From: Gluconobacter sp. Dm-62
Lineage (GTDB): Bacteria > Pseudomonadota > Alphaproteobacteria > Acetobacterales > Acetobacteraceae
Reading direction: 5' to 3'
Length of the DNA stretch: 64,000 bases
Assembly (NCBI RefSeq): GCF_018256155.1
Contig: NZ_JAERLY010000001.1
Coordinates: 310,001-374,000, forward strand
The notes beneath the pieces were generated by a model. It searched no databases and had not been told where the DNA came from. It saw only the letters and a program-made list of their open reading frames with translations. A program made the position numbers and the translations under genes. The number at the start of each line of letters is the position of its first letter. Position 1 is the stretch's first letter. Positions 28,384 to 45,473 of this stretch are shown in pieces.

Positions 28384-29353
28384 CTACTCCGCCTGTTCGT
28401 CCGGAATAGGGCGAGTGTCGATCGCCCCGGAAAACGATACAGGATTTCGTAAGTCGTTGTTGACGTGCAGGCTGAAAACATCTGGGCGAGCATAGTGTCC
28501 CACAACATCCAGATCATATTTTGCCCGAATGACGTCTTCCAAATCGATATCGGCTGTCAGAATTGCCTCACGGTCATAAACCGGTCCTGCAATAATCTCT
28601 CCAAGCGGGCTGACAATGATACTGCCACCCCGGATAAGAACCGTGTTTGGGTCGTTTCCTTGGTGACACTCGTAATTTTCTGGCGCATCCGCACGTGTCA
28701 TGAACTGGCATGCACTTAAAACAAATGTCCTGCCTTCATAGGCAATATGTCGCATGGACACCTGCCAGATATCACGCTCGTCCACCGTAGGCGCGCACCA
28801 AAGGTTAATTCCCCGTGCATACATGCTCTGGCGGAGATCCGGCATATAGTTTTCCCAACAGATCGCCGCGCCAAGACGTCCAATATCCGTGTCAAAACCC
28901 GGAATAGTAGATCCGTCCCCCTGCCCCCAGACCAGACGTTCCGTGCCGGTCGGCATCAGTTTGCGATGCTTACCCAGAAGCCCCCCCGTCAGGTCCGAAA
29001 AAAAGTGCCGTGCAGTAAAGGGTGGCACCCTCCCGTTCAATAACCCCAACCACCAAGTGCGCCGACATTTTCGCTGCAAATGAGCCAATGCGCTCTGTTT
29101 CAGGCCCAGGAACCGCGATGGCTGACTTCCAGTAGCGCAGATAGTCATTACGACCTTCGGGAAAGCGGCTCCCCAGAACAGCGCCGAAGGTCAGTCCCTT
29201 GGGATAGCCACCAATATAGGCCTCTGGAAAAACCACCATTTCAGCACCCTGTGCGGCCGCTGCTTCGCAGTGCGCCTCCATTCGATCCAAGGTTGCGGGC
29301 GTATCGAATAGCGTACTTCCTGCTTGAATGACGGCAACGCGGAGCTTGGTCAT
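28384..29353 (-). pseudogene. Nitrilase-family gene with a frameshift in a G7 run
   Basis: Two overlapping frames form one nitrilase of about 322 residues. The first (from 29353) carries VVFPEAYIGGYPKG with the catalytic Glu and ends prematurely after LFFGPDGG. The second continues [14 protein letters not shown] with the catalytic Lys, then [12 protein letters not shown] with the Cys and neighbours. The break sits on seven G (C7 at 28981-28987 on the plus strand); six would restore the frame. The active-site triad and CWENYMP are typical of true nitrilases, which hydrolyse nitriles to acids. This could be a null allele, slippage at the run or a sequencing error. Confidence 0.85.
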
Positions 29354-31051: not shown

Positions 31052-31732
31052 TCAAAATGGGGTTAGTATTCTTGGAATAATAAAAACAAAAACTGCACTT
31101 AAGCTTATTACACGCGACAACTCACGCCTTATCAAAAACTGTTCAAGAATACGTCCAATAACATATAGAAATGCGAACAGACCGCAAAAAACATATGCCG
31201 CTTTTGGAGATAATTTTTTCTTTATTTTTTCCTGATCACCATTTTCTAAATCATTTTTTTTATCCGGCTCAGGCACGCCAAGAAATTTATCAATGAAATT
31301 CATGGGAACAACTGCATCCTTTTTCTGCGTACCTGCTGCTCCTTCAAGGTGAGCAGGCTTCGCAGCAGCCAAAGAAATTGTTGCCTGATGGGCCTTCGTA
31401 AATTCGAAAACCTTGCCAAAACCAAAAAACAAAGCTGGAGCCAGAAAACATAATAATAATGTTTTGCTTACAAGATTATAATACAGCCGTTTCCCGTGAT
31501 TTCCATCTTTAATCTGCAAAATACCTGAGTCAAAAATAGACATCTTATCTTGAGAGGGTTGATTTTTTTTCTGGAAAACCAGCTGCTCATGCTCCCGCGT
31601 ATATGTCGTCCCCGGAATCTGGAAAAGAACGTCAAGCCTTTCAAAGGCCTCATCAGGCGACATTTCTGGAGCAAGCGGCAGGCTGCCTCTGATGTGCCAG
31701 ATCCAGCTAATAAAACGTAAGTTCAATTGCAT
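31052..31732 (-). CDS. Membrane protein of unknown function next to fatty acid hydroxylase
   Basis: About 226 residues from the Met at 31732. A cytoplasmic-looking N-terminal part (APEMSPDEAFERLDVLFQI) is followed by one hydrophobic segment (LLLCFLAPALFFGFGKVF), a charged middle (KKNDLENGDQEKIKKKL), and two more hydrophobic segments near the end. I do not recognise the family. It starts 43 bp after the fatty acid hydroxylase-like gene on the same strand, so the two are probably one transcript and may act on the same membrane lipid. Confidence 0.6.
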   Translation of the reverse strand: MQLNLRFISWIWHIRGSLPLAPEMSPDEAFERLDVLFQIPGTTYTREHEQLVFQKKNQPSQDKMSIFDSGILQIKDGNHGKRLYYNLVSKTLLLCFLAPALFFGFGKVFEFTKAHQATISLAAAKPAHLEGAAGTQKKDAVVPMNFIDKFLGVPEPDKKNDLENGDQEKIKKKLSPKAAYVFCGLFAFLYVIGRILEQFLIRRELSRVISLSAVFVFIIPRILTPF

Positions 31733-31774
31733 CACCTTTCTGCAGGAACCGCTCTCTGTGCCAAGCAAGACACT

Positions 31775-32776
31775 CTATTGCCTGCGAACTTGCCCAACCG
31801 GAGTTCCAAAACGCTTTCTGAGTTTCTTCCTGACCACCTTGAAACCCTGCAGGTAAGGGTATGTCAGCTGTTCGCGCACTGACATGCGACGTCCTCCCTC
31901 CATGCCCAGAAGTTCTGCTTCCCCATCTACACATGTCCCGAAAATGCGGTCGATGAAAATATATGTGTTAGAAAAATTACTGCGACTTGCTTCGAAATCC
32001 CGTGAGTGGTGAAGACTATGATGTTCAACCGTATTGAACAGGTATCTCCACCACTTCGGAGTGTTGAAGCGGACGTTAATGTGCTGATAGATAGAGATCG
32101 CCATCGTCATTGCGCCAGCAAGCAGAACAGCGCGTGGAACGAAATCGAAAAATCCATCCATTCCCAGTCCGATCAGGAACAGCTCAAGAGGGTTACCCAC
32201 CGCGCCCTTGTTCACGTTGAGCTGGGTCACATAATGATGAACAGAGTGTGGTAGCCAGAGCGGATACCAGTTGTGCATTCCCCTGTGCATCCAGTACTGA
32301 CCAAAATCAAAAATAAACGACAGTAAAAACGCCTGTACGAGCAGGGGAAGCCCCATAAACCAATCCAGCTTTCCAAGATGGAAATAACCCTGGATGTAAT
32401 CAGCCACCGCATCGCTACCGACGTAAATATTGATATATCGGACTAGGGTGTAACCCATGCCGACATAAAATAGGTCCGTCACCAGCTCTTTCCATGTCAG
32501 CTGCCAGCTCCTGTAGCGTGGGTTGATCCACTCCAGACAAAGGAGGAACGCCTTAAAAATTACAGAAATCCAGATAGCAGTCGACGCTTTTGCGATCGAA
32601 TTGGGAGCATAATACCAGAACAAAATCAGTGCGAAGAGTACGGTCGGCTGAAAATAAGTGAAGAAAGCCCGCTTCACGGGGCCGCCTTCGACTCTGGGAA
32701 TATTTTCCCACCCGATCGTAACGGGGGCCTGCCTTCCGATTACTCGGTTTCCAACGCGAATTCCGTCCATTATCAT
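31775..32776 (-). CDS. Fatty acid hydroxylase / sterol desaturase family protein
   Basis: 333 residues with about four membrane segments and the full set of His boxes for a di-iron site: HRGMH, HSVHH and HHSLHHS, with NVRF between the last two. This family hydroxylates or desaturates membrane lipids (sterols, sphingolipids, fatty acids, carotenoids). Acetic acid bacteria make hopanoids and sphingolipids, so these are candidate substrates, but nothing here decides between them. The unknown membrane protein gene follows as a likely partner. Confidence 0.85.
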   Translation of the reverse strand: MIMDGIRVGNRVIGRQAPVTIGWENIPRVEGGPVKRAFFTYFQPTVLFALILFWYYAPNSIAKASTAIWISVIFKAFLLCLEWINPRYRSWQLTWKELVTDLFYVGMGYTLVRYINIYVGSDAVADYIQGYFHLGKLDWFMGLPLLVQAFLLSFIFDFGQYWMHRGMHNWYPLWLPHSVHHYVTQLNVNKGAVGNPLELFLIGLGMDGFFDFVPRAVLLAGAMTMAISIYQHINVRFNTPKWWRYLFNTVEHHSLHHSRDFEASRSNFSNTYIFIDRIFGTCVDGEAELLGMEGGRRMSVREQLTYPYLQGFKVVRKKLRKRFGTPVGQVRRQ

Positions 32777-32983
32777 CCCCTAGAGGCGGTCAGCCAAGTT
32801 GGTACGGATACAGATCGATTCGAAGTTAAGCAGAAAGATGTGTTCTGGGTCATTACGTCAATCGACGTATAATTTCCCGGAACACCCTATTGTGAGACTC
32901 TAAGTTGCGTTTTTTCGGCTTGCATCCTGCGCCCTGATGCTTGCCACAAAGGCCAATTCACGTGTTGTAGGGCATGCCCCAAG

Positions 32984-35900
32984 CTAGATATCAGCCACAA
33001 CCACAACCGCCTGCCCCGCCCGAACAGGTTTCCCTGGTGTTGCCCTGATCTCACGGATAATACCCTCAGACGGAGACTGTACCGAAATCTCGATTTTCAT
33101 GGATTCCAGAACCATAACGGTCTGCCCGACTTCAACCCGGTCTCCGACTTCTACAAGCACTTTCCAGACATTTCCCGCGACATAGCTTTCGATTGCGACT
33201 TCGTCTTCTGCCAGAGGAGCATCTTCTTCAGGCGCGCCGGATGCTTCAAGGCTTTCGAAATGATCCAGCCCGGCGTCGATCCAGTAACGCCGCTCTGCTT
33301 CAAAAGCTTCTGCCTGCGTGGTGCCGAAAGATGCGATCTCTCCAGCCTCATGCGCAAGGAAATCCTCATATTCAGACAGAGAAAGCTCGCCCTCTTCTAC
33401 CCGGAGATCATACCGTCCGATCGGAAAATCACGACGGATTGTTTCCAGAGTCTCCGCAGGCACTGGAAAAAACTGCAGCTGATCGAAGAATCTCAGCAGC
33501 CATGGTTTTTCTTTAAAGGCTTTTGGCAGTGTGTATCGCGCCCACATCTGCAAAGTGCGCCCTACGAACTGATATCCGCCCGGGCCTTCCATTCCATACA
33601 CACAGAGATACGCCCCCCCGATGCCGACAGAGTTTTCAGCAGTCCATGTGCGTGCGGGATTGTACTTTGTCGTTACCAGCCGCTGCCGGGGATCCAGTGG
33701 CGTCGCGACCGGAGCACCCAGATAGACGTCCCCAAGCCCCATAACGAGGTAGCGCGCATCAAACACGATATTCCGCACGTCTTCGATGGAGTGCTGTCCA
33801 TTGATCCGACGGATGAACTCAATATTACTGGGGCACCACGGAGCATCCGGACGGACCGTAGTCATGTATTTTTCGATCGCCAGCTTGCAGGCAGGATCGT
33901 CCCAGGACAGGGGGAGATACACGGTTCGGGAGGGCACCCGGATGTCTTTCTGCGCCGTCACCTCGCGCCAGAGGCTTGAGAGATAGGTCAGGATTTCTGA
34001 AAGAGGCAGGGAATCTGGCGTAAAGTGTATCTGAAGCGATCGTATGCCTGGCGTGAGATCAATAACGCCCGCTGGTCGCGCTCGCTCTATGGCTTCCATA
34101 AGAGCATGAACGCGGAATCGTAGAGCAATATCGAGCTTGGCCTCTCCAATTTCCAGAAGAAGATATGTATCGCCCGCCAGACGGCCGACCAGACACTCAC
34201 TCCCCTCCCCCGTCTCAAGGACAATCGGAGACTGTAGAGCCCCGCAGCCGGACCAGTTCACGGGCACAGACGACAGCGACGTCATTTCCACATTCTGTGC
34301 CCGCGCGATGTCACGGGCCGTTTCCACCGTAACTGGAATAAATCTGATCCGGTCGCCCGCCCTGAGCTGACCCAGCTGCCACAGATCTGCCTCGATCACC
34401 GTTGCGGGACAGACAAACCCGCCAAGACTTGGACCGTCCGGGCCGAGAATGACAGGCATGTCACCTGTAAAATCGACTGCTCCAATCGCATACGGATTGT
34501 CATGGATATTGGACGGATGAAGTCCCGCCTCGCCTCCACTGTCACGGACCCATTCCGGCCTTGGGCCAATCAGGCGGATACCCGTGCGGTTCGAATTGAA
34601 ATGAACCTCCCACTCGGCTTCGAAGAAACGGTCGATATAGGCTGGAGTGAAATATTCCGGCGCTCCGTGCGGTCCATAAATGACACGAATCGTGCGTATG
34701 TCACCCAGTTTCATCCTCAGGTCAGGCGCAAGGACCTGTCCTTCCGGCGCCTCATTGCAGGCTTCGATGTGGAGCACGTCTCCTGCCAGCAGGGGACGGC
34801 CTGCGTGACCGCCGAATTTTCCAAGCGTGAATGTGGAACGGCTTCCGAGATACAGCGGCACATCAATTCCGCCACTCAGACACAGCATCGACCGCGCACC
34901 GTTTCGCGTTGTCCCCAGCTGGAGCGTCTCGCCCGAACGGATGCGGAAGACTGTGTCCATCTCGCGGGAGGCCCCGTCGAGATTGATCGGGATATCCGCG
35001 CCTGTCACCACGGCAAAAGTATCAGTGTTGAACCTCAGGGTGGGGCCAGTCATGATGATTTCAAGACCCGCCACATCCGGGGGATTGCCAAGCAACGCAT
35101 TACCAAGGCGAAAAGCACGACTATCCATCGGGCCCGAGGGAGGAACGCCGACGGCCCAGTAGCCCAACCTTCCGGGGAAATCCTGGATCGTTGTCTGGGT
35201 TCCGCCTGAAAGAACATCAATCGTCGAAGCGCGATAGACAAGCTGTTCGAGACAGCGGGTCCAGGGAGCGCCGGAAGCAAAGGGGGCGTCGAACAGGATT
35301 TGCCGCAAATAATTCTGGTTTGTCTCGACACCATATAAGCGCATGTCTGTCAGCGCAGTATCAAGCCTTGCAATCGCCTGCTCTCGGGTTGGCGCATGAG
35401 CGATGACTTTGGCAATCATGGGATCAAAAAACGGTGAAATCTCGGCTCCCGCTTCAAGCCAGGTATCGACCCGCAGCCCATTGTCGTCCGTAACTGGGAA
35501 ACTGACTTCAGTCAGAAGGCCGGGGGATGGCTGAAAATTCTTTCCCGGATCTTCGGCGTAAATCCGCGCCTCGATCGCATGACCAGAAGGCGTGAGCGCT
35601 GCGACAAGGGAATGAAGAGGAGCAAGGGTTCCGGCCGCCAGTTCAATCATCCAGCGGACGAGATCAACACCCCAGACTTCCTCTGTAACGCCGTGCTCGA
35701 CCTGAAGACGGGTATTGACCTCCAGAAAATAGAAATTTTTCGACGCGGCGTCATAAACAAACTCCACCGTACCCGCACTTCGGTAGTTGACCGCCTTGCT
35801 GAGCCGCACCGCCGCTTCGCAAAGAGCATCACCCATTCCTCCCGGCAGACCCGGAGCAGGCGTCTCCTCAATAACCTTCTGGTTACGCCGCTGAACTGAA

Positions 35901-36583
35901 CAATCCCTGACACCGAGGGAAATTACCTCTCCCCGACCGTCCCCGAAAACCTGAACTTCGAGATGACGCGCATGCTCGATATATTTTTCGATAAAAACGC
36001 CGGAATCGCTGAAGTTATTTTCCCCCAACTGACGCACAGTATCGAATATTCCGACGAGTTCCGCTTCGCTCTTGCAGACACGCATGCCAATACCGCCGCC
36101 GCCGGCAGTGCTCTTGAGCATGACCGGATAGCCAACTTTTTCCGCAGCGGCCTGCGCATCCCTCAGGTTTTGCAGCAGCACCGACCCTTCGAGGAGCGGC
36201 ACGCCTTTGGCTGCAGCCAGCGCCCTGGCCTCGTGTTTCAGGCCGAACGCCCGAAGCTGGGCCGGCTCAGGGCCGATAAAACTGATCCCTTCGGCCTGAC
36301 ACGCCTCGGCGAACCCAACATTTTCTGACAGGAAGCCGTATCCTGGATGGATCGCCTGAGCTCCCGTTTCCTTTGCGATCTCGATAATTCGTTTCGCATT
36401 CAGATATGTCTGGGAAGGCCCCCCTTCACCGAGCGACACAGCGATATCCGCATCACGAACGTGCAGACTTGCTGCATCCGCCTCGGCATAAACCGCGACC
36501 GGGCTGATCCCCATTATTCTTAATGTTCTGATGATTCTGCACGCAATTGCACCGCGGTTGGCAATAAGAACGCGATCAAACAT
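32984..36583 (-). CDS. Biotin-dependent guanidine/urea carboxylase
   Basis: 1199 residues. Domain order: biotin carboxylase (about 1-450; LIANRGAIACRIIRTL, ATP-grasp KSTAGGGGIGM, LEVNTRLQVEHGVTEE), KipA-like domain (about 470-770; DFPGRLGYWAVGVPPSGPMD), KipI-like domain (about 800-1060), and a C-terminal biotinyl domain with VLESMKIE carrying the biotin Lys. Such proteins were long annotated as urea carboxylase. Many that lie under guanidine-I riboswitches next to DUF1989 pairs are guanidine carboxylases, making carboxyguanidine from guanidine, bicarbonate and ATP. The riboswitch 105 nt upstream and the neighbouring genes favour guanidine here. A short leader ORF overlaps the start. Confidence 0.88.
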   Translation of the reverse strand: MFDRVLIANRGAIACRIIRTLRIMGISPVAVYAEADAASLHVRDADIAVSLGEGGPSQTYLNAKRIIEIAKETGAQAIHPGYGFLSENVGFAEACQAEGISFIGPEPAQLRAFGLKHEARALAAAKGVPLLEGSVLLQNLRDAQAAAEKVGYPVMLKSTAGGGGIGMRVCKSEAELVGIFDTVRQLGENNFSDSGVFIEKYIEHARHLEVQVFGDGRGEVISLGVRDCSVQRRNQKVIEETPAPGLPGGMGDALCEAAVRLSKAVNYRSAGTVEFVYDAASKNFYFLEVNTRLQVEHGVTEEVWGVDLVRWMIELAAGTLAPLHSLVAALTPSGHAIEARIYAEDPGKNFQPSPGLLTEVSFPVTDDNGLRVDTWLEAGAEISPFFDPMIAKVIAHAPTREQAIARLDTALTDMRLYGVETNQNYLRQILFDAPFASGAPWTRCLEQLVYRASTIDVLSGGTQTTIQDFPGRLGYWAVGVPPSGPMDSRAFRLGNALLGNPPDVAGLEIIMTGPTLRFNTDTFAVVTGADIPINLDGASREMDTVFRIRSGETLQLGTTRNGARSMLCLSGGIDVPLYLGSRSTFTLGKFGGHAGRPLLAGDVLHIEACNEAPEGQVLAPDLRMKLGDIRTIRVIYGPHGAPEYFTPAYIDRFFEAEWEVHFNSNRTGIRLIGPRPEWVRDSGGEAGLHPSNIHDNPYAIGAVDFTGDMPVILGPDGPSLGGFVCPATVIEADLWQLGQLRAGDRIRFIPVTVETARDIARAQNVEMTSLSSVPVNWSGCGALQSPIVLETGEGSECLVGRLAGDTYLLLEIGEAKLDIALRFRVHALMEAIERARPAGVIDLTPGIRSLQIHFTPDSLPLSEILTYLSSLWREVTAQKDIRVPSRTVYLPLSWDDPACKLAIEKYMTTVRPDAPWCPSNIEFIRRINGQHSIEDVRNIVFDARYLVMGLGDVYLGAPVATPLDPRQRLVTTKYNPARTWTAENSVGIGGAYLCVYGMEGPGGYQFVGRTLQMWARYTLPKAFKEKPWLLRFFDQLQFFPVPAETLETIRRDFPIGRYDLRVEEGELSLSEYEDFLAHEAGEIASFGTTQAEAFEAERRYWIDAGLDHFESLEASGAPEEDAPLAEDEVAIESYVAGNVWKVLVEVGDRVEVGQTVMVLESMKIEISVQSPSEGIIREIRATPGKPVRAGQAVVVVADI

Positions 36584-36632
36584 AGCGCGGAAATCCAGAC
36601 TGCAGAGGGATGGTGGAAGAAGTATTCATCAT
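36576..36632 (-). CDS. Possible 18-codon leader ORF overlapping the carboxylase start
   Basis: ATG ATG at 36632 follows AGGA by a few bases and reads 18 codons (MMNTSSTIP...) to a TGA that overlaps the carboxylase ATG (TATGTTTGA). The carboxylase itself has no good ribosome site, so translation may be coupled through this leader. It lies between the guanidine-I aptamer and the gene. Expression is inferred only. Confidence 0.4.
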   Translation of the reverse strand: MMNTSSTIPLQSGFPRYV

Positions 36633-36688
36633 GGTCCTGCAACTCCGATTACACATAAGCCGGGCGGCCTTCCGGGCCACCGCAGCAT

Positions 36689-36783
36689 TATCTCCCGGGC
36701 TTTTATCCCGCCGTGTAACCTCGAAGCCGAGGTCGCGTGCTCTCGGACCAGTCTCCCAACATCAGTTGGGGCGGAACCCTAGC
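36689..36783 (-). ncRNA. Guanidine-I (ykkC) riboswitch for the carboxylase gene
   Basis: Read on the minus strand: GCTAGGGTTCCG, then CTGGTCCGAGAGC, a CCTCGG-CTTCGAGG hairpin, TTACACGGCGGGA and AAAAGCCCGGGAGA. These are the conserved blocks of the ykkC/guanidine-I aptamer, including the ACGGCGGGA and GCCCGGGAGA pair that form the binding core. It binds free guanidinium and normally turns expression on. About 105 nt separate it from the carboxylase start; GGTGGCC/GGCCGCC just downstream could form part of the expression platform. Confidence 0.92.
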
Positions 36784-36797
36784 GCGCCATTGATTTC

Positions 36798-36826
36798 AAT
36801 CTCCTTCCGATACAAAAACGGGTCAA
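36798..36826 (-). promoter_or_regulatory. Possible promoter for the carboxylase transcript
   Basis: On the minus strand TTGACC (36826-36821) is followed after 17 nt by GAGATT (36803-36798), just upstream of the aptamer. The -35 is good, the -10 poor. Confidence 0.3.
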
Positions 36827-36892
36827 GGAAAATTTCAGGCATCACATCGTCGGGAAAGACTTGAATCAGTTCCGGGGACGGAATCTTTGTTG

Positions 36893-36921
36893 TTGTAAGC
36901 CCGTATCGGTTCCGATATAAA
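36893..36921 (+). promoter_or_regulatory. Possible promoter for the permease operon
   Basis: TTGTAA (36893-36898), 17 nt, TATAAA (36916-36921), ending 12 nt before the first aptamer block. The related elements TTCCGATACAAAAA (36805-36818) and TTCCGATATAAAAA (36910-36923) sit on both sides of the divergent region. Confidence 0.4.
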
Positions 36922-36933
36922 AATTGGAAAGCC

Positions 36934-37026
36934 GCTAGGGTTCCGATTCAATTCTCTGAATGTCTGGTCCGAGAGCGCGCGGCCTCGGTTTCGAGGTTAC
37001 ACGGCGGGACAAAAGCCCGGGAGATA
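36934..37026 (+). ncRNA. Guanidine-I (ykkC) riboswitch for the permease operon
   Basis: GCTAGGGTTCCG (36934-36945), CTGGTCCGAGAGC (from 36964), CCTCGG-TTTCGAGG, TTACACGGCGGGA and AAAAGCCCGGGAGA. Conserved blocks are the same, in the same order, as in the minus-strand copy; only the variable stems differ. Downstream, ATGGCG (37041-37046) can pair with CGCCAT (37070-37075), and CTCCG (37076-37080) with CGGAG (93-97), which overlaps the likely ribosome-binding sequence GGAGAAG. This suggests ligand-dependent control of translation of the permease operon. Confidence 0.93.
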
Positions 37027-37101
37027 TTGAGATGCCGGAAATGGCGTCGCATATCTTTCGTGATGTGTGCGCCATCTCCGTCTGATTTAGGCCGGAGAAG
37101 A

Positions 37102-37194
37102 ATGACGATGACACACCATACATGTCTTCTCGCAAAGACGAGCCCCCGGCGAGGCCGGAGCGCCTGTCCGCTTACGATGTGTGTAACACCGTGA
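37102..37194 (+). CDS. Possible 30-codon leader ORF overlapping the permease start
   Basis: ATG at 37102 lies 5 nt after GGAGAAG and reads 30 codons (MTMTHHTCLL...) to a TGA at 37194, out of frame with and overlapping the permease gene, whose first ATG (37122) has no ribosome site nearby. It may be a leader that couples or limits permease translation under riboswitch control. Purely an inference from spacing. Confidence 0.3.
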   Translation: MTMTHHTCLLAKTSPRRGRSACPLTMCVTP

Positions 37195-38717
37195 GCCCCG
37201 ACGGCACGGTCTACAGGGAAACGCCTCCGCTGTCGCTCCGCCCGAAACCGGATAGCGAACGTCTCGCACTCCTTGGTTATCAGCAGGAACTGCGGCGGGA
37301 TCTCGGGCCTTTTGCATCCTTTGCCGCCGGCTTTTCGTTCGTCTCGGTTCTGACGACAGTGTTTGAAATGTTTCCGCTCGGCTATTCCTTTGGTGGCCCG
37401 GCATTCTTCTGGACATGGCCACTCGTTTTCCTCGGACAGTTTTGCGTAGCGCTCTGTTTTGCAGAAATCGCTGCGCATATCCCGGTTGCAGGGGCGATTT
37501 ACCAGTGGTCGTCACGACTGGCGGTCCGGAACGTGGGATGGCTCGCCGGATGGCTGACGCTGATCGGTTACATCATCAGCGTTTCCGCCATTGCCATTGC
37601 CATGCAATCCATTCTTCCCAGCCTGTGGGATGGATTTCAGGTCATTGGCGGAGACCCGAACGTGACAACCCTGACAGGCGCTGAAAACGCGGTCATTCTG
37701 GGTACGGCGACCATTCTGGCTAGCACGATCATCTCATGCGCAGGCGTGCGTATTTCAGCATTCGTCACGGTGACCGGAGTTTATGCGGAAATCGCCGGAT
37801 TATGCGTGCTGATCGTAGCACTTTTCTGCAATACCCGGCGCGGCCTGGCTGTTACCGTCGACACGACCCATATGGCGCCGGGAATGTCATCCTCTGGCGC
37901 CTTTCTGGCTTCAATGCTTATGGCCGTCTACGTCATGTATGGCTTCGACAGCGCCGCCGAACTTTCAGAAGAAACGCGCGATCCGGCACGGACGGCGCCC
38001 CGCGCGATTATCCGCTGCCTTCTGCTGTCGTTCGTCGCAGGTGGGCTCGTCATTCTGGGCGCCCTGATGGCAGCGCCATCGCTGTCTTCCGGCGAACTTG
38101 CGACAGTGGGCGTACCCTACGTCATCAATGCCATCACATCCGGAACCATTGGGCATATCCTGCTGGCCACGGTCGCCATTTCAGTATTTTCAGCAACCAT
38201 TGCGATCCAGACCTCGGCTTCCCGTGTTCTCTTTTCAATGGCGCGGGACGGCGTCCTGCCCGGAGCCGGGCATCTCGCGCAGGTCTCGTCCCGCACAGGA
38301 ACGCCGGTTGCCGCCACCGTTTTCGTCGGCGTGTTCAGCGCCGCCTTCCTTGGCGTCAATTACGGCGATTCATCCCTTTTCAGTGCCATTACGTCCTCGG
38401 CCGTGGGGGTGACGTATTTCGCCTATCTTCTGGTGACCGTGCCGCTTCTGGTCCGGCGCGTGCAGTGGATGACGTCTCAGGCGCCTTCTCCATTTGGTTT
38501 CGAGGAAAAGGGGCGGATCCGTCGCGCACTGATCAATCTGTGTGCGGTGGTGTGCGGAGCGCTGTTTCTTCTGAATACGCTCTGGCCCCGCAGTGAAGTG
38601 TTCGATCCGAGCGGAACACGACCTTACATGGTGGCGTTCCCCGCAGCCTTTCTGATCATCGCCCTCGGGACAGGGCTCATCCTTCAAAAATTCCAAAGTA
38701 CCAGATCCGCACTCTAG
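37122..38717 (+). CDS. APC-family amino acid/guanidine permease
   Basis: 531 residues, about 12 membrane segments, with an APC (amino acid-polyamine-organocation) pattern: LGYQQELRRDLGPFASFAAGFSFVSVLT at the start of the membrane part, then IPVAGAIYQWSS and YGFDSAAELSEETRDPART, the conserved cytoplasmic loop of GABA/choline-type permeases. It would import guanidine or a related cation across the inner membrane. It is the first gene behind the guanidine-I riboswitch. The start is uncertain, since 37122 is the first in-frame ATG but is 25 nt from the nearest ribosome-binding sequence. Confidence 0.85.
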   Translation: MSSRKDEPPARPERLSAYDVCNTVSPDGTVYRETPPLSLRPKPDSERLALLGYQQELRRDLGPFASFAAGFSFVSVLTTVFEMFPLGYSFGGPAFFWTWPLVFLGQFCVALCFAEIAAHIPVAGAIYQWSSRLAVRNVGWLAGWLTLIGYIISVSAIAIAMQSILPSLWDGFQVIGGDPNVTTLTGAENAVILGTATILASTIISCAGVRISAFVTVTGVYAEIAGLCVLIVALFCNTRRGLAVTVDTTHMAPGMSSSGAFLASMLMAVYVMYGFDSAAELSEETRDPARTAPRAIIRCLLLSFVAGGLVILGALMAAPSLSSGELATVGVPYVINAITSGTIGHILLATVAISVFSATIAIQTSASRVLFSMARDGVLPGAGHLAQVSSRTGTPVAATVFVGVFSAAFLGVNYGDSSLFSAITSSAVGVTYFAYLLVTVPLLVRRVQWMTSQAPSPFGFEEKGRIRRALINLCAVVCGALFLLNTLWPRSEVFDPSGTRPYMVAFPAAFLIIALGTGLILQKFQSTRSAL

Positions 38718-38768
38718 GCCATCAGCAGGCGACGGCATGACGTTCGTCAGCGACTAAGGAGTCATTCC

Positions 38769-39506
38769 ATGAATCATTCGGCTGAATTTCCGACCCTCAA
38801 TCCAACCCTGTATCGGGAAACCATTCCCGGCGGCAGCCATCGCTCCCTGATCCTGCGTGCAGGACAGAAGCTGCGTCTGACGGATATTGAGGGCGGTGGA
38901 AACCTCTCCCTCATGGCCCTGAATGCGAAGCAGTTGACCGAGAGACTGAATCTTCCTGACACACTCAAGGCCCAGCACACGGCATTCGTGACCGAAGGCC
39001 ACTGCCTGTACTCGGATATGGGGCGCGTCCTGCTCGCGATTACTGCGGATACCTGCGGCTGGCACGACTGTTTTGGCGGCGTTCTGAATGCCGAGGAAGC
39101 ACGCGAGAAATACGGCGCAGGCCGCTTCGGGGATTTGCGCAACGGGTTCCACCGCAACGGGTTCGAAAATCTGCTCGTAGAGATGGGGAAATGGGATCTG
39201 GATGCACCGGACATCCAGATGATCGTTAATTTCTTCAGCAAAGTCGCGGTCGCCGATGGAGGATATCTGAACTACGTCCCAGACAATTCCAGTGCCGAGA
39301 GCTATGTCGATCTTTATGCGCCGATGGACGCACTCATCGTCATGACGGCACTTCAGCACCCGATGGATCCGTCCCCCCACTACGCGCCCAAACCGATTGA
39401 ATTTGCTGTGGAAGACGTCCGTGATGCCGGAATTACTGCCGCGTGCCGCCAGTCATGCGCCGAGAACGGACGTGCCTTCTACAACACGGAACTCTTCTGC
39501 CTGTAA
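38769..39506 (+). CDS. cgdA: Carboxyguanidine deiminase subunit (DUF1989, urea amidolyase-associated protein 1)
   Basis: 245 residues of the DUF1989/UAAP1 family: IPGGSHRSLILRAGQKLRLTD, GGGNLSLMALN, YSDMGRVLLAITADTCGWHDCFGG (Cys and His of the metal or active site), and DIQMIVNFFSKVAV. With its partner gene 13 bp downstream it corresponds to the pair shown in other bacteria to form carboxyguanidine deiminase, which converts carboxyguanidine to allophanate and ammonia. AAGGAG lies 7 nt upstream of the start. Which of the two is CgdA and which CgdB follows gene order and may need swapping. Confidence 0.85.
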   Translation: MNHSAEFPTLNPTLYRETIPGGSHRSLILRAGQKLRLTDIEGGGNLSLMALNAKQLTERLNLPDTLKAQHTAFVTEGHCLYSDMGRVLLAITADTCGWHDCFGGVLNAEEAREKYGAGRFGDLRNGFHRNGFENLLVEMGKWDLDAPDIQMIVNFFSKVAVADGGYLNYVPDNSSAESYVDLYAPMDALIVMTALQHPMDPSPHYAPKPIEFAVEDVRDAGITAACRQSCAENGRAFYNTELFCL

Positions 39507-39519
39507 GGAATTCTGAGCA

Positions 39520-40155
39520 ATGTCCATCACTTCCAGCACGTTCGATCCCGCCGACGCCGTTTCCCGCCATATCATCGGAGCAGGCGAGCCCTATGTCTTT
39601 GACGTCAAGAAAGGCCAGACTCTCCGTCTGCTCGATCTCGAAGGCAATCAGGCGGTCGATACGCTCTTCTACAATGCCAATAACACGCGAGAGCGCTATG
39701 ATGTGCAGCGCACCATCCGCAGGCAGAAGGCACTCTTTCTGACCACTGGAACAGTTCTGTATTCAAATCTCGGTGGTCCTCTGGCGACGATCACCGCTGA
39801 CACATGCGGACAGCACGACACGCTTGGCGGAGCCTGCTCGCAGGAAAGCAATACGGTCCGTTATGCAACCGACCGTTTTTACATGCACAGTTGCCGTAAC
39901 AATTTTCTTTGCGGCTGCCTTCAGGATGGCCGCCTGACCAAGCGCGATCTGGCACCCAACATCAATTTCTTCATGAATGTTCCCGTCACGCCGGACGGTA
40001 CGCTCGTCTTTGCGGATGGCGTCTCCGCTCCCAAAAAATATGTGGAACTGAAAGCTGAAGTCGATCTGATCGTCGTGATCTCGAATTGCCCCCAGCTCAA
40101 TAACCCCTGCAACGCGTGGAATCCGACCCCGGCAGAAGTGCTCATCTGGGACTGA
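39520..40155 (+). CDS. cgdB: Carboxyguanidine deiminase subunit (DUF1989, urea amidolyase-associated protein 2)
   Basis: 211 residues, the second DUF1989 protein: GAGEPYVFDVKKGQTLRLLDLEGNQAVDTLF, NLGGPLATITADTCGQHDTLGGACS, MHSCRNNFL, and a C-terminal PQLNNPCNAWNPTPAEVLIWD. The two subunits share the TADTCG-HD motif, so they probably form a heteromer with related folds. Spacing to the genes on both sides (13 and 26 bp) shows one operon with the permease and allophanate hydrolase. Confidence 0.85.
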   Translation: MSITSSTFDPADAVSRHIIGAGEPYVFDVKKGQTLRLLDLEGNQAVDTLFYNANNTRERYDVQRTIRRQKALFLTTGTVLYSNLGGPLATITADTCGQHDTLGGACSQESNTVRYATDRFYMHSCRNNFLCGCLQDGRLTKRDLAPNINFFMNVPVTPDGTLVFADGVSAPKKYVELKAEVDLIVVISNCPQLNNPCNAWNPTPAEVLIWD

Positions 40156-40181
40156 TCCACAAACAGACGAAGGACTGGACG

Positions 40182-42008
40182 ATGTTGACCACTCTGCCTG
40201 ACCTCGCCCCACAGACGCTGCTGGCCTTGTATCGCGATAACACGCTCACGCCCCGGGCGCTGATTGATGCGTTGCGCATGAAAGCGCTGGCGATCAATGA
40301 AGATTATCGCGCCTTCATCCATATCCTCGATGAATCCGAAACCGAGCCTTTTCTGCGCCATCTGGAAGCGAAGGAAAACCGAAGCCTCCCACTCTATGGC
40401 CTTCCATTCGTAGTCAAGGATAATATCGATCTCGCCGGAATTCCCACAACCGCAGCCTGCCCGGCGTTTGCCTACGTTCCCGATGAAACCGCAACCGTGG
40501 TCCGGCGCCTTATCGAGCTCGGCGCCATTCCGGTCGCCAAGGCCAATCTCGACCAGTTCGCAACGGGCCTGAACGGCACCCGATCCCCTTATGGTGCCTG
40601 TCGCAACAGTGTGCTGCCCGATTTTCCGTCCGGGGGCTCCAGTTCGGGCTCGGCGCTGGCGGTCGCACTCGGGATTGCAAGCTTCGCCCTTGGAACCGAC
40701 ACCGCAGGAAGCGGCCGTATCCCCGCCGCTTACAACAATCTCGTCGGACTCAAAGCCACCCGTGGGCTTGTCTCAACGCATGGTGTCGTTCCCGCCTGCA
40801 GAACACTGGACTGCACGACACTTCTGACCGCATCCGCAAGTCAGGCCAGCGCATTGTTTTCCCTGATCGCCCAGTACGACCCTGCGGATGATTACAGTCG
40901 AAAAAATCCCCAGTGGAATGGGTCCACAGCATTCGGGGCGGTTCGACCAGGCTTTCGGTTCGGCGTTCCGCAAAGCCTCGATTTCGCGGGATGTCCTGAA
41001 GGAGACGCTCTTTTCGCTCAGGCCATTGCTCGTCTGGAAGCGATGGGTGGCATCCCGGTGCCCATTGACCTCTCCCCGTTTCTGGAAGCGGCCAGACTTC
41101 TTTACGAGGGCCCCTGGGTTGCGGAGCGGTATTTCGTCGTCCGCGACCTACTGGCGCGCGATCCCAAAGCTATCCTGCCCGTCATCCGTGACGTTCTTGA
41201 GGCAGCCCCAGGTTACAGCGCCGTAGAGGTCTATGCCGCAACGTACAGGCTTCAGCATCTCAAGACCACCTGTGACGCCATCATGGGCGACCTGAATTGC
41301 GTGCTGACACCCACGATGCCCCGGCCCGTCACACTGGCAGAACTGCATGAACAGCCGGTCGCTGCGAATTCTCTTCTCGGCGTCTATACGAATTTCATGA
41401 ACCTGCTGGACTACGCTGCTGTTGCCGTCCCGTCAGCCTTCATGACCAACGGTTTGCCATGGGGAATCAGCCTCTTCGGACGCGCATTTACGGACCAGTA
41501 TCTGCTGAGCTTCGCGGATGCGTTCCAGCGGATGTCAGATCTGCCTCTCGTAGGGGAGCAGACACTGGAGGCGCCTGTGACTGGGCGTATTGCTGCAAAC
41601 GACAAGGCGCGCGTCGTGGTCTGCGGCGCACATCTCGACGGCCTGCCGCTCAACTGGCAATTGCAGGACCGCGGTGGCCGGCTCATCAAAGTCACCACGA
41701 CAGCACCATACTACCGCTTTTATGTTCTGCCCGGAGGCCCGCCCATGCGTCCCGGACTTGAGCGATGCGATGATGGCGGCTGCGCCATTGAGGTCGAGGT
41801 TTGGGAACTGCCTTCCGCGGAACTCGGATCTTTTCTGACGCAAATTCCCGCCCCCCTGGGTCTGGGCAAGGTTGAACTCAGCGACGGAAGTTTTGAAACC
41901 GGCTTTATCTGTGAAGGCGCAGCTCTGTCATCTGCCCAAGACGTCACGTCCACCGGCGGATGGCGCGCATGGCTTGCATCGGGAGACCGTCAGAAAACAC
42001 CGGCCTGA
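40182..42008 (+). CDS. atzF: Allophanate hydrolase
   Basis: 608 residues. The N-terminal amidase-signature domain has Lys79 in FVVKDNID, cis-Ser around 154 in SGGSSSGSALAVALG, and the nucleophile Ser177 in DTAGSGRIPAA. The C-terminal domain (about 480-608) is the small allophanate-specific domain with ARVVVCGAHLDGLPLNWQL and the YYRFYVLPGG segment. It cleaves allophanate to two ammonia and two CO2, the last step of guanidine (or urea) use through carboxylation. The ATG at 40182 lies 26 bp after the second DUF1989 gene; an earlier in-frame start would overlap it. Confidence 0.93.
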   Translation: MLTTLPDLAPQTLLALYRDNTLTPRALIDALRMKALAINEDYRAFIHILDESETEPFLRHLEAKENRSLPLYGLPFVVKDNIDLAGIPTTAACPAFAYVPDETATVVRRLIELGAIPVAKANLDQFATGLNGTRSPYGACRNSVLPDFPSGGSSSGSALAVALGIASFALGTDTAGSGRIPAAYNNLVGLKATRGLVSTHGVVPACRTLDCTTLLTASASQASALFSLIAQYDPADDYSRKNPQWNGSTAFGAVRPGFRFGVPQSLDFAGCPEGDALFAQAIARLEAMGGIPVPIDLSPFLEAARLLYEGPWVAERYFVVRDLLARDPKAILPVIRDVLEAAPGYSAVEVYAATYRLQHLKTTCDAIMGDLNCVLTPTMPRPVTLAELHEQPVAANSLLGVYTNFMNLLDYAAVAVPSAFMTNGLPWGISLFGRAFTDQYLLSFADAFQRMSDLPLVGEQTLEAPVTGRIAANDKARVVVCGAHLDGLPLNWQLQDRGGRLIKVTTTAPYYRFYVLPGGPPMRPGLERCDDGGCAIEVEVWELPSAELGSFLTQIPAPLGLGKVELSDGSFETGFICEGAALSSAQDVTSTGGWRAWLASGDRQKTPA

Positions 42009-42142
42009 AAAAGCCGGTTCAGCATTTTTCCATCAAATTCCCGGATCTGATTTCCAGCACACAGGGCAGATCCTTTTCCATATCGGTTCCGCAACAGCAG
42101 CGCAGATTTACAATCTGCGTGGGCTCGAGCAGGGAGATTACA

Positions 42143-43123
42143 ATGTATCAGGGTTCAACCGACAGGCCTGCGAAAGGTCAGGCAGAAGGACGGGCTCCGC
42201 CCCGCTTTCCCTGTATTCTTGTCGCCGATGCCCCCTCACCGGCACTCCGTCTGTTTTCCGATGCGTTGGAACATGCCGGGATGACGGCCATGACAGAGCC
42301 TGATGGAAATGCCATGCTCGATACCCTAAGGACGGTGTCCCCTGATCTGGTCGTTATGGAAGTCGCACTACCCGGGTTAGGCGGGTTCGAAGTCGCGACC
42401 AGGATCAGGCACGACCCGGCCCTCAGCCATATTCCATTCATTTTCCGTACCAAGCACATGGAAACGCAGAACGTTCTGCGGGGGCTGGAGGTCGGGGGCA
42501 TCGATTACATTTCCAAGACCCGACCGGTGGAGGAAATGGTTGCACGTATCAAGACTCACCTGCGAGGAGCCATCGAAGCCCGGACCCTGCGTTTGGCACT
42601 CGACGCCTGCCACAGACCAATGATTGGCGTTGCTCCGGATGGCTCCCTGTCGTGGTACACCCCTGCCGCCGCCTCTCTGATGTCCGGGGTTTTCGTATCA
42701 TGGCAGCCGAATACTCTCCTTCCGTCTGCTCTTGGAGACATTTTCATTGAACTGGCAAAATCCAGTCCCCTGCCAAAACACAGGACTGTTGAACTGAATG
42801 CCAGCATGGGAAGCACGATTGAAGGTGGAAGCCTCGAATGTATCACGACTGGCCCCATGCCAGATGGGACGATGGGCATTACCCTTCTGCTGCGTCGCCC
42901 CGGAGAGGAAGAAAGGCGCCTCGGCGCACGCCACAACCTCACCACGCGTGAAGCACAGGTCCTCTTCTGGATCAGTCGTGGAAAATCGAACCGGGATATC
43001 AGTGAGGTGCTTGGCATCAGTTCCAGAACGGTGAACAAACATCTTGAACAGATTTTTGCAAAGCTTGGCGTGGAAAACCGGGCTTCCGCAGCAGCCATTG
43101 CCGTTAAAACATCAGCCGAGTGA
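42143..43123 (+). CDS. LuxR-type regulator with an atypical receiver domain
   Basis: 326 residues. The N-terminal receiver-like domain (about 28-145) has the phospho-acceptor position as Glu73 (LVVMEVALPGLGG), where response regulators have Asp; the conserved Lys is kept (YISKTRP). A middle part (about 150-255) resembles a degenerate PAS-like sensor. The C-terminal LuxR helix-turn-helix (LTTREAQVLFWISRGKSNRDISEVLGISSRTVNKHL) is intact. The start at 42143 has AGGGAGAT in front. It follows allophanate hydrolase on the same strand by 134 bp and may regulate the cluster; no sensor kinase gene is next to it. Confidence 0.85.
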   Translation: MYQGSTDRPAKGQAEGRAPPRFPCILVADAPSPALRLFSDALEHAGMTAMTEPDGNAMLDTLRTVSPDLVVMEVALPGLGGFEVATRIRHDPALSHIPFIFRTKHMETQNVLRGLEVGGIDYISKTRPVEEMVARIKTHLRGAIEARTLRLALDACHRPMIGVAPDGSLSWYTPAAASLMSGVFVSWQPNTLLPSALGDIFIELAKSSPLPKHRTVELNASMGSTIEGGSLECITTGPMPDGTMGITLLLRRPGEEERRLGARHNLTTREAQVLFWISRGKSNRDISEVLGISSRTVNKHLEQIFAKLGVENRASAAAIAVKTSAE

Positions 43124-43188
43124 AGTGGAATTCTGACAATGACTTTCCCCACTAACAGATATTCCACCGCTATCCTGATGCCCGCGAT

Positions 43189-44763
43189 ATGAAGACAGAA
43201 CTGCTACGCGCAAGGTCGCTCCTAAAAGCCGGACGACCAATGGATACGCGCTCAGTCGCCATGGCTGAAACGATCCGGAATCCGGCATCGGCAGAGGCGC
43301 GCTTTCTCCTTGGGGTTAGTGAAGCCATGCTGGGAAATATCCGGGAAGGCCTGACGCATCTGCGCAAGGCAACAGATCTGAAGCGCTCTGCGGAATACTA
43401 TGCACAGCTTGCACGGTGTCTGCTCATGGTCCGCCAGGATCGAGATGCACGCACAGCCTTACAGAATGCGGAACAATGCCTTGCCGTTGGGGAAAGGGTC
43501 GATGCATTGACGCGTGACACACTGGGATGCGCCTATGCAAGATTGGGAAACCACACTGAGTCTCTCCCACATTTCGCCGCAGCCGTCCGTATACAGCCTG
43601 AAAATACCCAATTCCGCTATAATCACGCCATTGCCCTCAGCTTTGTGGGAGAAGCAGCAGAATCAGAAAAAGCTTTCGAAAGGCTTCTGACACAGGAGCC
43701 ACACAATGCGCGTGCACATCACGGACTGGCCGGACTTCGCCGCCAAACAGCAGAATGCAACCACGTTCCCCGACTTCGCGCAGTCCGGAATGCAACGCAA
43801 GATCCAGACGCTCGCCTTCTGCTCGGATATGCCCTTGCCAAGGAGCTTGAAGACATTGGCGAAGCAGCGGAATCCTTCAGATGTCTGCTTGACGTCAACA
43901 AGGAATACCGCCGCCGGATAACATACGACTTCGCCAGCGATGGCGAGATATTTGACGCGATCGAAGCCAGTTGGTCCCAGTTCGCATCTGCGCCCGTCAC
44001 GCATGCGCCCAAAGATGCGCCAATCTTCATTATCGGGATGCCAAGAACCGGAACAACCCTTGTTGATCGGATTCTGTCTTCACATCCTGACGTAGTCAGC
44101 GCGGGGGAGTTGCAGGCTTTTCCACTTGCAGTCAAAGCCGCATCAGGAACACGTACGCGCAATGTTCTTGACCCCGAGACACTCTTTTACGCCGCAGGAA
44201 AAGACCTTGGAGGCATCGGCAGATCCTACATGGAACGCGCTGCATCCCATGTTCCAGCAACACCCAAGCGCTTCATCGATAAATTTCCCGGAAATTTTCA
44301 ATATGCTGGCCTCATCGCACGCGCCCTGCCGCATGCCGCCATCATTTGTTTGCGACGCCATCCCATGGATACAGTTGTCAGCAATTTTAAGAACTTGTTT
44401 GCAACCACTTCCCGATATTATCAGTATAGCTATGACATTCAGGAAATCGCCCAGTATTACGTCCGCTTCGACCGGCTCATGAAATTTTGGCAGGCTGCAA
44501 TCCCTAATCGGATTCTCGAAGTACATTATGAAGATCTTGTCGAAAAACAGGAGGAAACGACGCGTCAAATTCTGGAGCATTGCAATCTGCAATGGTCAGA
44601 AAGCTGTCTGACCTTTCACGAAAACACCTCGCCTGTCTCCACTCCGAGTGCTGCGCAGGTCCGACGCCCGATCTATCGGGATGCTGTCGCACGCTGGCGT
44701 CGATACGAAAACGCTCTGGCACCAGCCCGCGACGTGTTCGATGCCGCTGGCATTCCTGTTTAG
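43189..44763 (+). CDS. TPR-domain sulfotransferase
   Basis: 524 residues. Residues about 1-250 form tetratricopeptide repeats (ARFLLGVSEAMLGNIREGL, YAQLARCLLMVRQDRDA, LGCAYARLGNHTESLPHF and others). From about 275 a sulfotransferase fold follows: PIFIIGMPRTGTTLVDRIL with the PAPS 5'-phosphosulfate loop, then FIDKFPGNFQYAG and ICLRRHPMDTVVSNFKN with the 3'-phosphate-binding Arg/Ser. Such proteins transfer sulfate from PAPS to a protein or glycan acceptor; the acceptor is unknown. Ribosome-binding sequence is poor. It is 65 bp after the LuxR-type gene. Confidence 0.85.
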   Translation: MKTELLRARSLLKAGRPMDTRSVAMAETIRNPASAEARFLLGVSEAMLGNIREGLTHLRKATDLKRSAEYYAQLARCLLMVRQDRDARTALQNAEQCLAVGERVDALTRDTLGCAYARLGNHTESLPHFAAAVRIQPENTQFRYNHAIALSFVGEAAESEKAFERLLTQEPHNARAHHGLAGLRRQTAECNHVPRLRAVRNATQDPDARLLLGYALAKELEDIGEAAESFRCLLDVNKEYRRRITYDFASDGEIFDAIEASWSQFASAPVTHAPKDAPIFIIGMPRTGTTLVDRILSSHPDVVSAGELQAFPLAVKAASGTRTRNVLDPETLFYAAGKDLGGIGRSYMERAASHVPATPKRFIDKFPGNFQYAGLIARALPHAAIICLRRHPMDTVVSNFKNLFATTSRYYQYSYDIQEIAQYYVRFDRLMKFWQAAIPNRILEVHYEDLVEKQEETTRQILEHCNLQWSESCLTFHENTSPVSTPSAAQVRRPIYRDAVARWRRYENALAPARDVFDAAGIPV

Positions 44764-44934
44764 CATGTCCCACCAATCAGAATTTTTAACATCCATCACA
44801 GGAACATATCGAATCCGGATTGATAAAAAGCATCCAAAACAGGCAACATCCTGACTGCGAACTGGAAATAGCCTCCGGCTTTATCCTCCACACCATATCT
44901 TCGAACTCAACAAAGCCTCACGAGAAAGCAGAAC

Positions 44935-45357
44935 ATGTCAGATACCACGTCCTCAACCACCCCGACTGAGCCTGCCGTCCAGCCCGTACTGACGGTCTGT
45001 GTAACATGCCGGCGCGGCCTTTCATCCGCCGAAATCGGCGATGCACCCGGGCCAGGTCGTCAGCTTTACGATGCCCTGCTGGCAAATGCCGAAGAATCCG
45101 GAATTTTAATTCGGCCAGTCGAATGCATGTCCTTATGCTCTCGGGGATGTACGGCGACAGTTTCGATGCCTGGAAAATGGACACTGCTGCTCGGCGGCCT
45201 TGAAATGGAAAAAATTGCTGATTTCAAGGGATGGCTCAAACTCTACAGTGCATCGAAGACCGGGATGGTTCCTGCGTCCAAGCGCCCTCCCACGCTTTCG
45301 GATATGGTCATCGCGCGCCTTCCGGCTGACATCGCGTCTCCTGCCAAACCAGCTTAG
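44935..45357 (+). CDS. DUF1636 family [2Fe-2S]-type small protein
   Basis: 140 residues. VCVTCRRG and VECMSLCSRGCTATV give a C-x2-C and C-x3-C-x3-C arrangement like thioredoxin-fold [2Fe-2S] ferredoxins; DUF1636 proteins are commonly annotated as metal-binding. A cytoplasmic electron-carrier or metal-handling role is likely. It lies 116 bp upstream of a molybdopterin oxidoreductase gene whose usual [2Fe-2S] small subunit is missing nearby, so it might supply that electron path (inference). Confidence 0.8.
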   Translation: MSDTTSSTTPTEPAVQPVLTVCVTCRRGLSSAEIGDAPGPGRQLYDALLANAEESGILIRPVECMSLCSRGCTATVSMPGKWTLLLGGLEMEKIADFKGWLKLYSASKTGMVPASKRPPTLSDMVIARLPADIASPAKPA

Positions 45358-45473
45358 AAACGGCGCCTTGGCAATCATTAAAAAACAGTTTGCACAGCAA
45401 AAGCGATTTTGCCTTTTCCAGCATCCATTGTTTTGGTCGCCTTGAAAACGACTGCGCCTGAGGAACATTCCTG

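Follow-up and report, generated by a model that had tools for sequence, protein, structure and literature searches.

Two guanidine-I (ykkC subtype 1) riboswitch aptamers lie back to back in one intergenic region of Gluconobacter sp. Dm-62 and are predicted guanidine sensors. The first-pass annotation of the window (the whole stretch of 64,000 nucleotides analysed, from contig NZ_JAERLY010000001.1) had claimed guanidine-I aptamers on both strands and proposed a search with the Rfam model. When this was run (RF00442; gathering score 63) both strands matched, with 91.4 bits (E 3.7e-15) for the carboxylase-arm aptamer (36690..36793, minus strand) and 83.9 bits (E 1.7e-13) for the permease-arm aptamer (36925..37025, plus strand). 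Both span model positions 1-107, a full-length match, and they are the only two RF00442 matches in the whole Gluconobacter assembly. The same four conserved blocks had been noted in both aptamers; all four were present in each and are identical between them, but the variable stems and the expression platforms differ. The opposite strands also held, with the spacing of about 150 bp given earlier revised to 131 bp between the facing aptamer ends (36794..36924), a spacer expected to hold both divergent promoters.

The flanking genes are as previously named, a biotin-dependent carboxylase on one arm and a permease, a DUF1989 pair and an allophanate hydrolase on the other, and both aptamers thus sit upstream of guanidine-related genes, as is typical of guanidine-I. 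The carboxylase (32984..36583, minus strand; annotated urea carboxylase) scored 1804.7 bits with TIGR02712, above the cut-off of 1303.85. On the plus strand, an APC-type permease (37191..38717; PF13520, 139.7 bits) is likely to be a guanidine importer. The longer permease ORF (37122-38717) scored 538.6 bits with TIGR03428 (permease, urea carboxylase system), below the cut-off of 740.45, and the protein is classed only as APC-type. Its start is probably GTG 37191; ATG 37122 was rejected because both G. kanchanaburiensis and genome G425 have a stop in that upstream frame. Two PF09347 (DUF1989) proteins follow, one of the UAAP1 family (38769..39506; TIGR03425, 294.3 bits, cut-off 205.95) and one of the UAAP2 family (39520..40155; TIGR03424, 311.8 bits, cut-off 284.7), both of the carboxyguanidine deiminase subunit type and together as expected of CgdA/CgdB. 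The arm ends with the allophanate hydrolase (40182..42008; TIGR02713, 747.8 bits for the listed ORF, cut-off 511.05); the listed ORF opens at 40116 and 40182 is the putative start.

The divergent pair with an identical gene split was found in seven genomes (five from the family sample plus G007 and G018 of the same genus), the window's own and six other Acetobacteraceae. In all seven the aptamer pair separates the carboxylase from permease-UAAP1-UAAP2-hydrolase, with the contig of one (L036) ending inside the carboxylase. Both aptamers exceed the cut-off in every one of these genomes, and an antisense or decoy role for one of them is for this reason not favoured. The riboswitch occurs in 4/26 genomes of Gluconobacter, each time as a divergent pair, and in one of the 14 genomes of the genus of G425. 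Matches were obtained in 22/397 genomes of the family sample (divergent pair in five), in 31/385 of the class sample (divergent pair only in the window's genome) and in 43/398 of the phylum sample (where, besides the window's genome, G1082 has a divergent pair). The genus, family, class and phylum samples overlap and strict filters were applied, so that counts from searches of more than 40 genomes are lower bounds, as stricter filters can miss weak matches. The arrangement, an unusual one for a known riboswitch class, is patchy but recurrent, and divergent pairs are rare. The second divergent pair, in G1082 of another family (L188, 8711-9395; aptamers 431 bp apart), is split differently, with an NMT1-like binding protein one way and UAAP1-UAAP2-carboxylase-hydrolase the other, which suggests that the divergent layout may have arisen more than once.

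The permeases of Gluconobacter roseus NBRC 3990 and of an uncultured Gluconobacter MAG are 98% identical to that of the window, and the surroundings are collinear with G. roseus over about 15 kb at 89.7%. Most of the 15 kb is also collinear with G. kanchanaburiensis, Acidomonas and G425; Swaminathania shares the core only. A plasmid search matched 76 records, 73 of them from Pantoea, with none at 80% query coverage, and a motif scan of the 16 kb examined in one plasmid record gave a single riboswitch. Among the best 80 of 269 permease relatives, those from outside the Acetobacteraceae were mostly actinobacterial (46-55% identity), and 13 of these 75 loci (L055-L129) carry a single guanidine-I-like element according to a simple motif scan.

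The two aptamers of the pair appear to be sisters. A FastTree phylogeny was built over about 100 columns from the 14 aptamers of the seven pair genomes and 15 of the 20 aptamers that the family search gave outside divergent pairs (a few of these from genomes with two non-divergent copies). The paired aptamers cluster apart from the unpaired ones (support 0.983), and the carboxylase-arm aptamers form a subgroup within the paired cluster (support 0.958); the permease-arm aptamers were not resolved as a single group. This clustering fits one old inverted duplication as the source of both aptamers, a result that the small number of columns makes suggestive only. Identity across the arms is equally low within a genome (0.71-0.84) and between genomes (mean 0.78), which indicates that the arms evolve apart; concerted evolution or gene conversion between the aptamers was considered and left no sign.

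The expression platforms were compared by alignment, folding and pair counts. The first-pass annotation had described them as different, and this was borne out: across the pair genomes the permease platform measures 76-80 nt and the carboxylase platform 51-53 nt, and the two platforms of the window gave no match to each other (blastn-short). The permease platform (37016..37098, plus strand; alignment A1) comprises the aptamer tail, hairpin A (37022-37056), hairpin B (37036-37080), a Shine-Dalgarno (SD) decoy CGGA (37036-37039), an anti-SD (37075-37080) and the SD CGGAGA (37093-37098). The platform can fold into either of two mutually exclusive hairpins, A, which takes in the aptamer tail, or B, which pairs the anti-SD UCUCCG with CGGA, an SD look-alike; once free, the anti-SD is able to pair with CGGAGA. 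Identity of this platform to the window was 0.96 in G. kanchanaburiensis, 0.92 in Acidomonas, 0.87 in G425 and 0.72 in Swaminathania, compared to 0.75, 0.70, 0.80 and 0.65 for the permease coding sequence and 0.54, 0.30, 0.55 and 0.39 for the leader ORF described below. A platform better kept than the coding sequence downstream of it points to selection on the RNA. Across the seven sequences pairs were formed in 98.4% of cells for hairpin B, 97.9% for hairpin A and 95.2% for the SD hairpin; these counts exceed those of slid versions, as structures drawn from the same sequences tend to. No pair of hairpins A and B was changed on both sides in the seven sequences, and the SD hairpin had one two-sided change, a number equalled by 63 of 500 shuffles. 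In Swaminathania the SD and anti-SD are both altered and the decoy is unchanged, with the SD/anti-SD pairing partly kept. When short transcripts were folded, the permease-arm SD opened clearly only in G. kanchanaburiensis (unpaired fraction 0.53 to 0.88), and the change in the other six genomes was at most 0.07. A conserved peptide from ATG 37041 (14 codons) was also considered and rejected, its frame breaking in Swaminathania and G425.

The carboxylase platform (36643..36699, minus strand; alignment A2) is simpler, with an aptamer strand CCGG (36698-36695), a hairpin (36686-36659) and a CGGAG ribosome site (36647-36643). Its identity to the window (G. kanchanaburiensis 0.69, Acidomonas 0.70, G425 0.80, Swaminathania 0.49) is no better than that of its own coding sequence (0.77, 0.72, 0.79 and 0.67, respectively). 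In all seven carboxylase arms the tail CCG pairs, over an intervening hairpin, with CGG in the SD; these tail and SD bases are invariant, so the result is compatible with pairing and does not prove it, and pair counts for the structure were no better than those of shuffles. With the tail CCCGGG blocked in a short transcript, the unpaired fraction of the SD rose from 0.38 to 0.92-0.98 in five of the seven genomes, and no opening was seen in Swaminathania (0.39 to 0.11) or Acidomonas (0.38 to 0.38); with nine tail bases blocked, the fraction in the MAG falls to 0.42. The opening was observed in none of the seven genomes when the transcript was extended by 30 nt, and with 60 nt only in G425 (0.43 to 0.82), with the change reversed in G. 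kanchanaburiensis. Forcing the aptamer core when folding at full length clearly opened the SD in one of 14 arms, that of the carboxylase in the window (0.32 to 0.77). A pairing between GUGUAA of the carboxylase leader and UUACAC of its aptamer, seen by eye, was set aside, as Swaminathania is without it.

Both platforms lead into short leader ORFs. It had been claimed that a hairpin can mask GGAGAAG in one arm and that a leader ORF follows in the other; a hairpin able to mask GGAGAAG is indeed present in the plus arm and the leader ORF exists as well, but leader ORFs are found in both arms rather than one. That of the permease arm (37108-37194, plus strand; 28 codons) has a stop overlapping the permease start (GTGA). 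All seven pair genomes have such a leader, of 27-40 codons, downstream of the SD; in six its stop overlaps the start of the permease (ATGA or GTGA), and in Acidomonas a start lies 9 nt past the stop. The chance of such an overlap is about 0.14-0.19 per genome, for six overlapping cases and before the NTGA context is required. The leader peptide itself is poorly conserved, with CLLA common to some genomes only. That of the carboxylase arm (36632-36576, minus strand; 18 codons) has a stop overlapping the carboxylase start (ATGTTTGA), an overlap present in five of the seven pair genomes; in Swaminathania the carboxylase is started directly, and in Acidomonas the leader is in frame and reads as an extension. 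Where this stop falls is in part dictated by the codons of the carboxylase itself. In all but one of the 14 arms the proposed start codon lies 9-11 nt past GGAG (10 nt in nine, 9 nt in three, 11 nt in one); the exception, the Swaminathania permease arm, carries GGGAAGG in place of GGAG.

From these features we infer two sister guanidine-I riboswitches, transcribed from divergent promoters, that would turn on translation of both arms through masking by a P3 strand and through coupled leader ORFs, a reading that we consider moderately probable. In the carboxylase arm without guanidine, the 3' strand (CCGG) of helix P3 in the aptamer would pair with the YCGGAG ribosome site and close it. In the permease arm, the P3 3' strand would instead pair with the SD decoy (CCGGA), releasing the anti-SD (UCUCCG), which would then close the real site CCGGAGAA. 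Guanidine would lock P3, so that the carboxylase-arm site opens and the permease-arm decoy captures the anti-SD. An opened site would start the short leader ORF, and as its stop overlaps the main start, translation would be handed on by coupling. Given partial support from folding and almost no covariation, the masking scheme should be read as a model.

An alternative account is that an inversion broke up an operon and left this layout only as a by-product, with the second riboswitch keeping the displaced carboxylase inducible and the two arms alike in behaviour; this is possible, although we lean against it. It is compatible with most of the translational reading given above. Non-divergent loci with the gene set have the DUF1989 pair, the carboxylase and, where found, the hydrolase co-oriented, which speaks for it. 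The identity of the conserved blocks in both aptamers and a carboxylase platform conserved no more than coding sequence also agree with it. Against it stand the difference in platform length with no mutual match in the window, the retention of the permease platform across genera and a cross-arm identity as low within as between genomes, none of which shows a functional difference. The opposite extension is that the two are paralogous switches with one aptamer and two translational platforms, direct P3 masking in one and a three-way exchange through the SD decoy in the other, handing over through leader ORFs and giving the importer and the carboxylase separate guanidine response curves. We regard this fuller scheme as unlikely; if true, separate response curves would avoid a build-up of guanidine. 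The proposal of the first-pass annotation that each arm has its own guanidine threshold gained no support from these results; as the conserved blocks are identical but the variable stems and platforms differ, a threshold differing between the arms is a possible hypothesis.

Guanidine-I is usually an ON switch and is usually described as transcriptional (PMC12186494, as excerpted), and the platform hairpins could accordingly serve only to let the ligand prevent a terminator in each leader, possibly with Rho. Besides this precedent, a scan called a terminator-like stem at 37031-37048, the only such call in the window's platforms. However, GCATATCTTT rather than a U-tract comes after this stem, and Swaminathania, Acidomonas and G425 have lost the TTT. 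The longest T-run ahead of the start codon is at most three in 14/14 arms, short of a U-tract terminator and making translational control the better reading, and the permease platform is conserved as far as the SD, which termination alone would not need. Transcriptional attenuation was looked for and is not favoured; as an explanation of the platforms it appears rather unlikely. Candidate promoter elements in the spacer comprise a TTGAC box toward the carboxylase arm, 43-44 nt before the aptamer motif, in 7/7 pair genomes and a TTGyAm-17-TATrAA box pair toward the permease arm in 6/7, absent in Swaminathania; a sigma-70 consensus scan found no promoter in the spacer. An inversion of the promoters between the inverted aptamer copies was not seen, TTGAC staying on the carboxylase side and the box pair on the permease side.

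T-runs and folds were also surveyed at non-divergent loci of the family, covering 17 of 20 aptamers (L021, L024 and L028 omitted; L011 ends early). A T-run of five was found in one of the 17 (L025). In six of the 17 (L013, L016, L017, L018, L022, L032) a GCTCTCC-like strand further downstream is paired to the aptamer tail in the minimum free energy fold, and no T-run of five follows. These modelled folds raise the possibility that guanidine-I platforms of the translational type are common among Acetobacteraceae. A family-wide RNAalifold consensus was computed from 13 unpaired loci (the 17 minus L011, L020, L029 and one identical sequence) and five of the seven permease arms (without L035 and L036, which are almost identical to the window); it contained only the inner six pairs of hairpin A, with the tail pairing absent.

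The carboxylase is supported as a guanidine-type enzyme by two aligned residues. Asp704 aligns with position 1330 of the K. lactis urea carboxylase, where that enzyme has Asn1330, and Asp952 aligns with position 1584; Asp at both (K. lactis numbering) is the mark by which a guanidine carboxylase is recognised, as set out in the excerpted text of PMC11410670. Position 1330, where Asp704 lies, distinguishes guanidine carboxylase from urea carboxylase; in a motif scan of the fetched loci Asp was found in 76/76 matching places, some loci being copies of one genome. That the carboxylase is a urea enzyme, as the name of TIGR02712 has it, and that its association with a riboswitch is incidental is highly improbable given Asp at the 1330 position, guanidine aptamers before both arms and a urease of the genome's own. 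The claim of the first-pass annotation that the set serves guanidine rather than urea use is supported by the two Asp residues and the separate urease. The biochemistry of the guanidine pathway is taken from excerpts of PMC12186494, PMC12508155, PMC9800807 and PMC11410670. A urease alpha subunit is encoded elsewhere in the same genome (G000:C12:7367-7720).

The sensor class itself is known, both aptamers matching the full RF00442 model; the paired layout with two different switching parts is without an earlier description that we found. Compared to the usual form of guanidine-I, which is terminator-based, this locus has two opposite-strand copies in one intergenic region and platforms that look translational. 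The pair resembles tandem riboswitches in being two adjacent sensors for one pathway, but tandem riboswitches share one transcript and these aptamers diverge on opposite strands, on two divergent transcripts. Guanidine-I is listed among the classes not found in tandem in the part of PMC9481103 available, and a survey of contiguous riboswitches reports tandem T-box and guanidine arrangements (PMC12452182, in part); the words opposite, divergent and strand are absent from the main text of the latter. The guanidine operon of Vreelandella boliviensis (PMC12508155, excerpt) likewise has two guanidine riboswitches for one guanidine carboxylase gene set, but combines guanidine-I and guanidine-II in one operon, whereas here two copies of one class serve divergent transcripts. 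In Nitrospira inopinata (PMC11410670) guanidine-I also directly precedes an APC permease; there a guanidinase takes the place of the carboxylase pathway, and the excerpted text describes no divergent second riboswitch. The B12 riboswitches of Mycobacterium tuberculosis (PMC11260477, excerpt) share a short upstream ORF tied to the riboswitch, but have another ligand and aptamer. No description of a divergent guanidine-I pair was found in the partly accessible open-licence literature, which does not prove absence, and no paper in the open-licence literature was found joining a guanidine riboswitch with Gluconobacter. Sister aptamers with one ligand and different platforms in one intergenic region would form a natural experiment in which the platform, not the pocket, sets the response. 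For acetic acid bacteria the locus also provides a guanidine-assimilation route open to testing, and it suggests that coupled leader ORFs can let guanidine-I work on translation.

A PADLOC scan returned no family. The collinear segment (31106-46265) also holds a fatty acid hydroxylase-like gene, a LuxR-type response regulator, a TPR-sulfotransferase, a DUF1636 protein and a molybdopterin enzyme; it is shared with G. roseus and largely with three more pair genomes, though the riboswitches occur in so few Gluconobacter genomes. Further out in the window, two overlapping ORFs in different frames (28384-29353, minus strand) together make up a carbon-nitrogen hydrolase (PF00795), and the gene thus looks broken or frameshifted.
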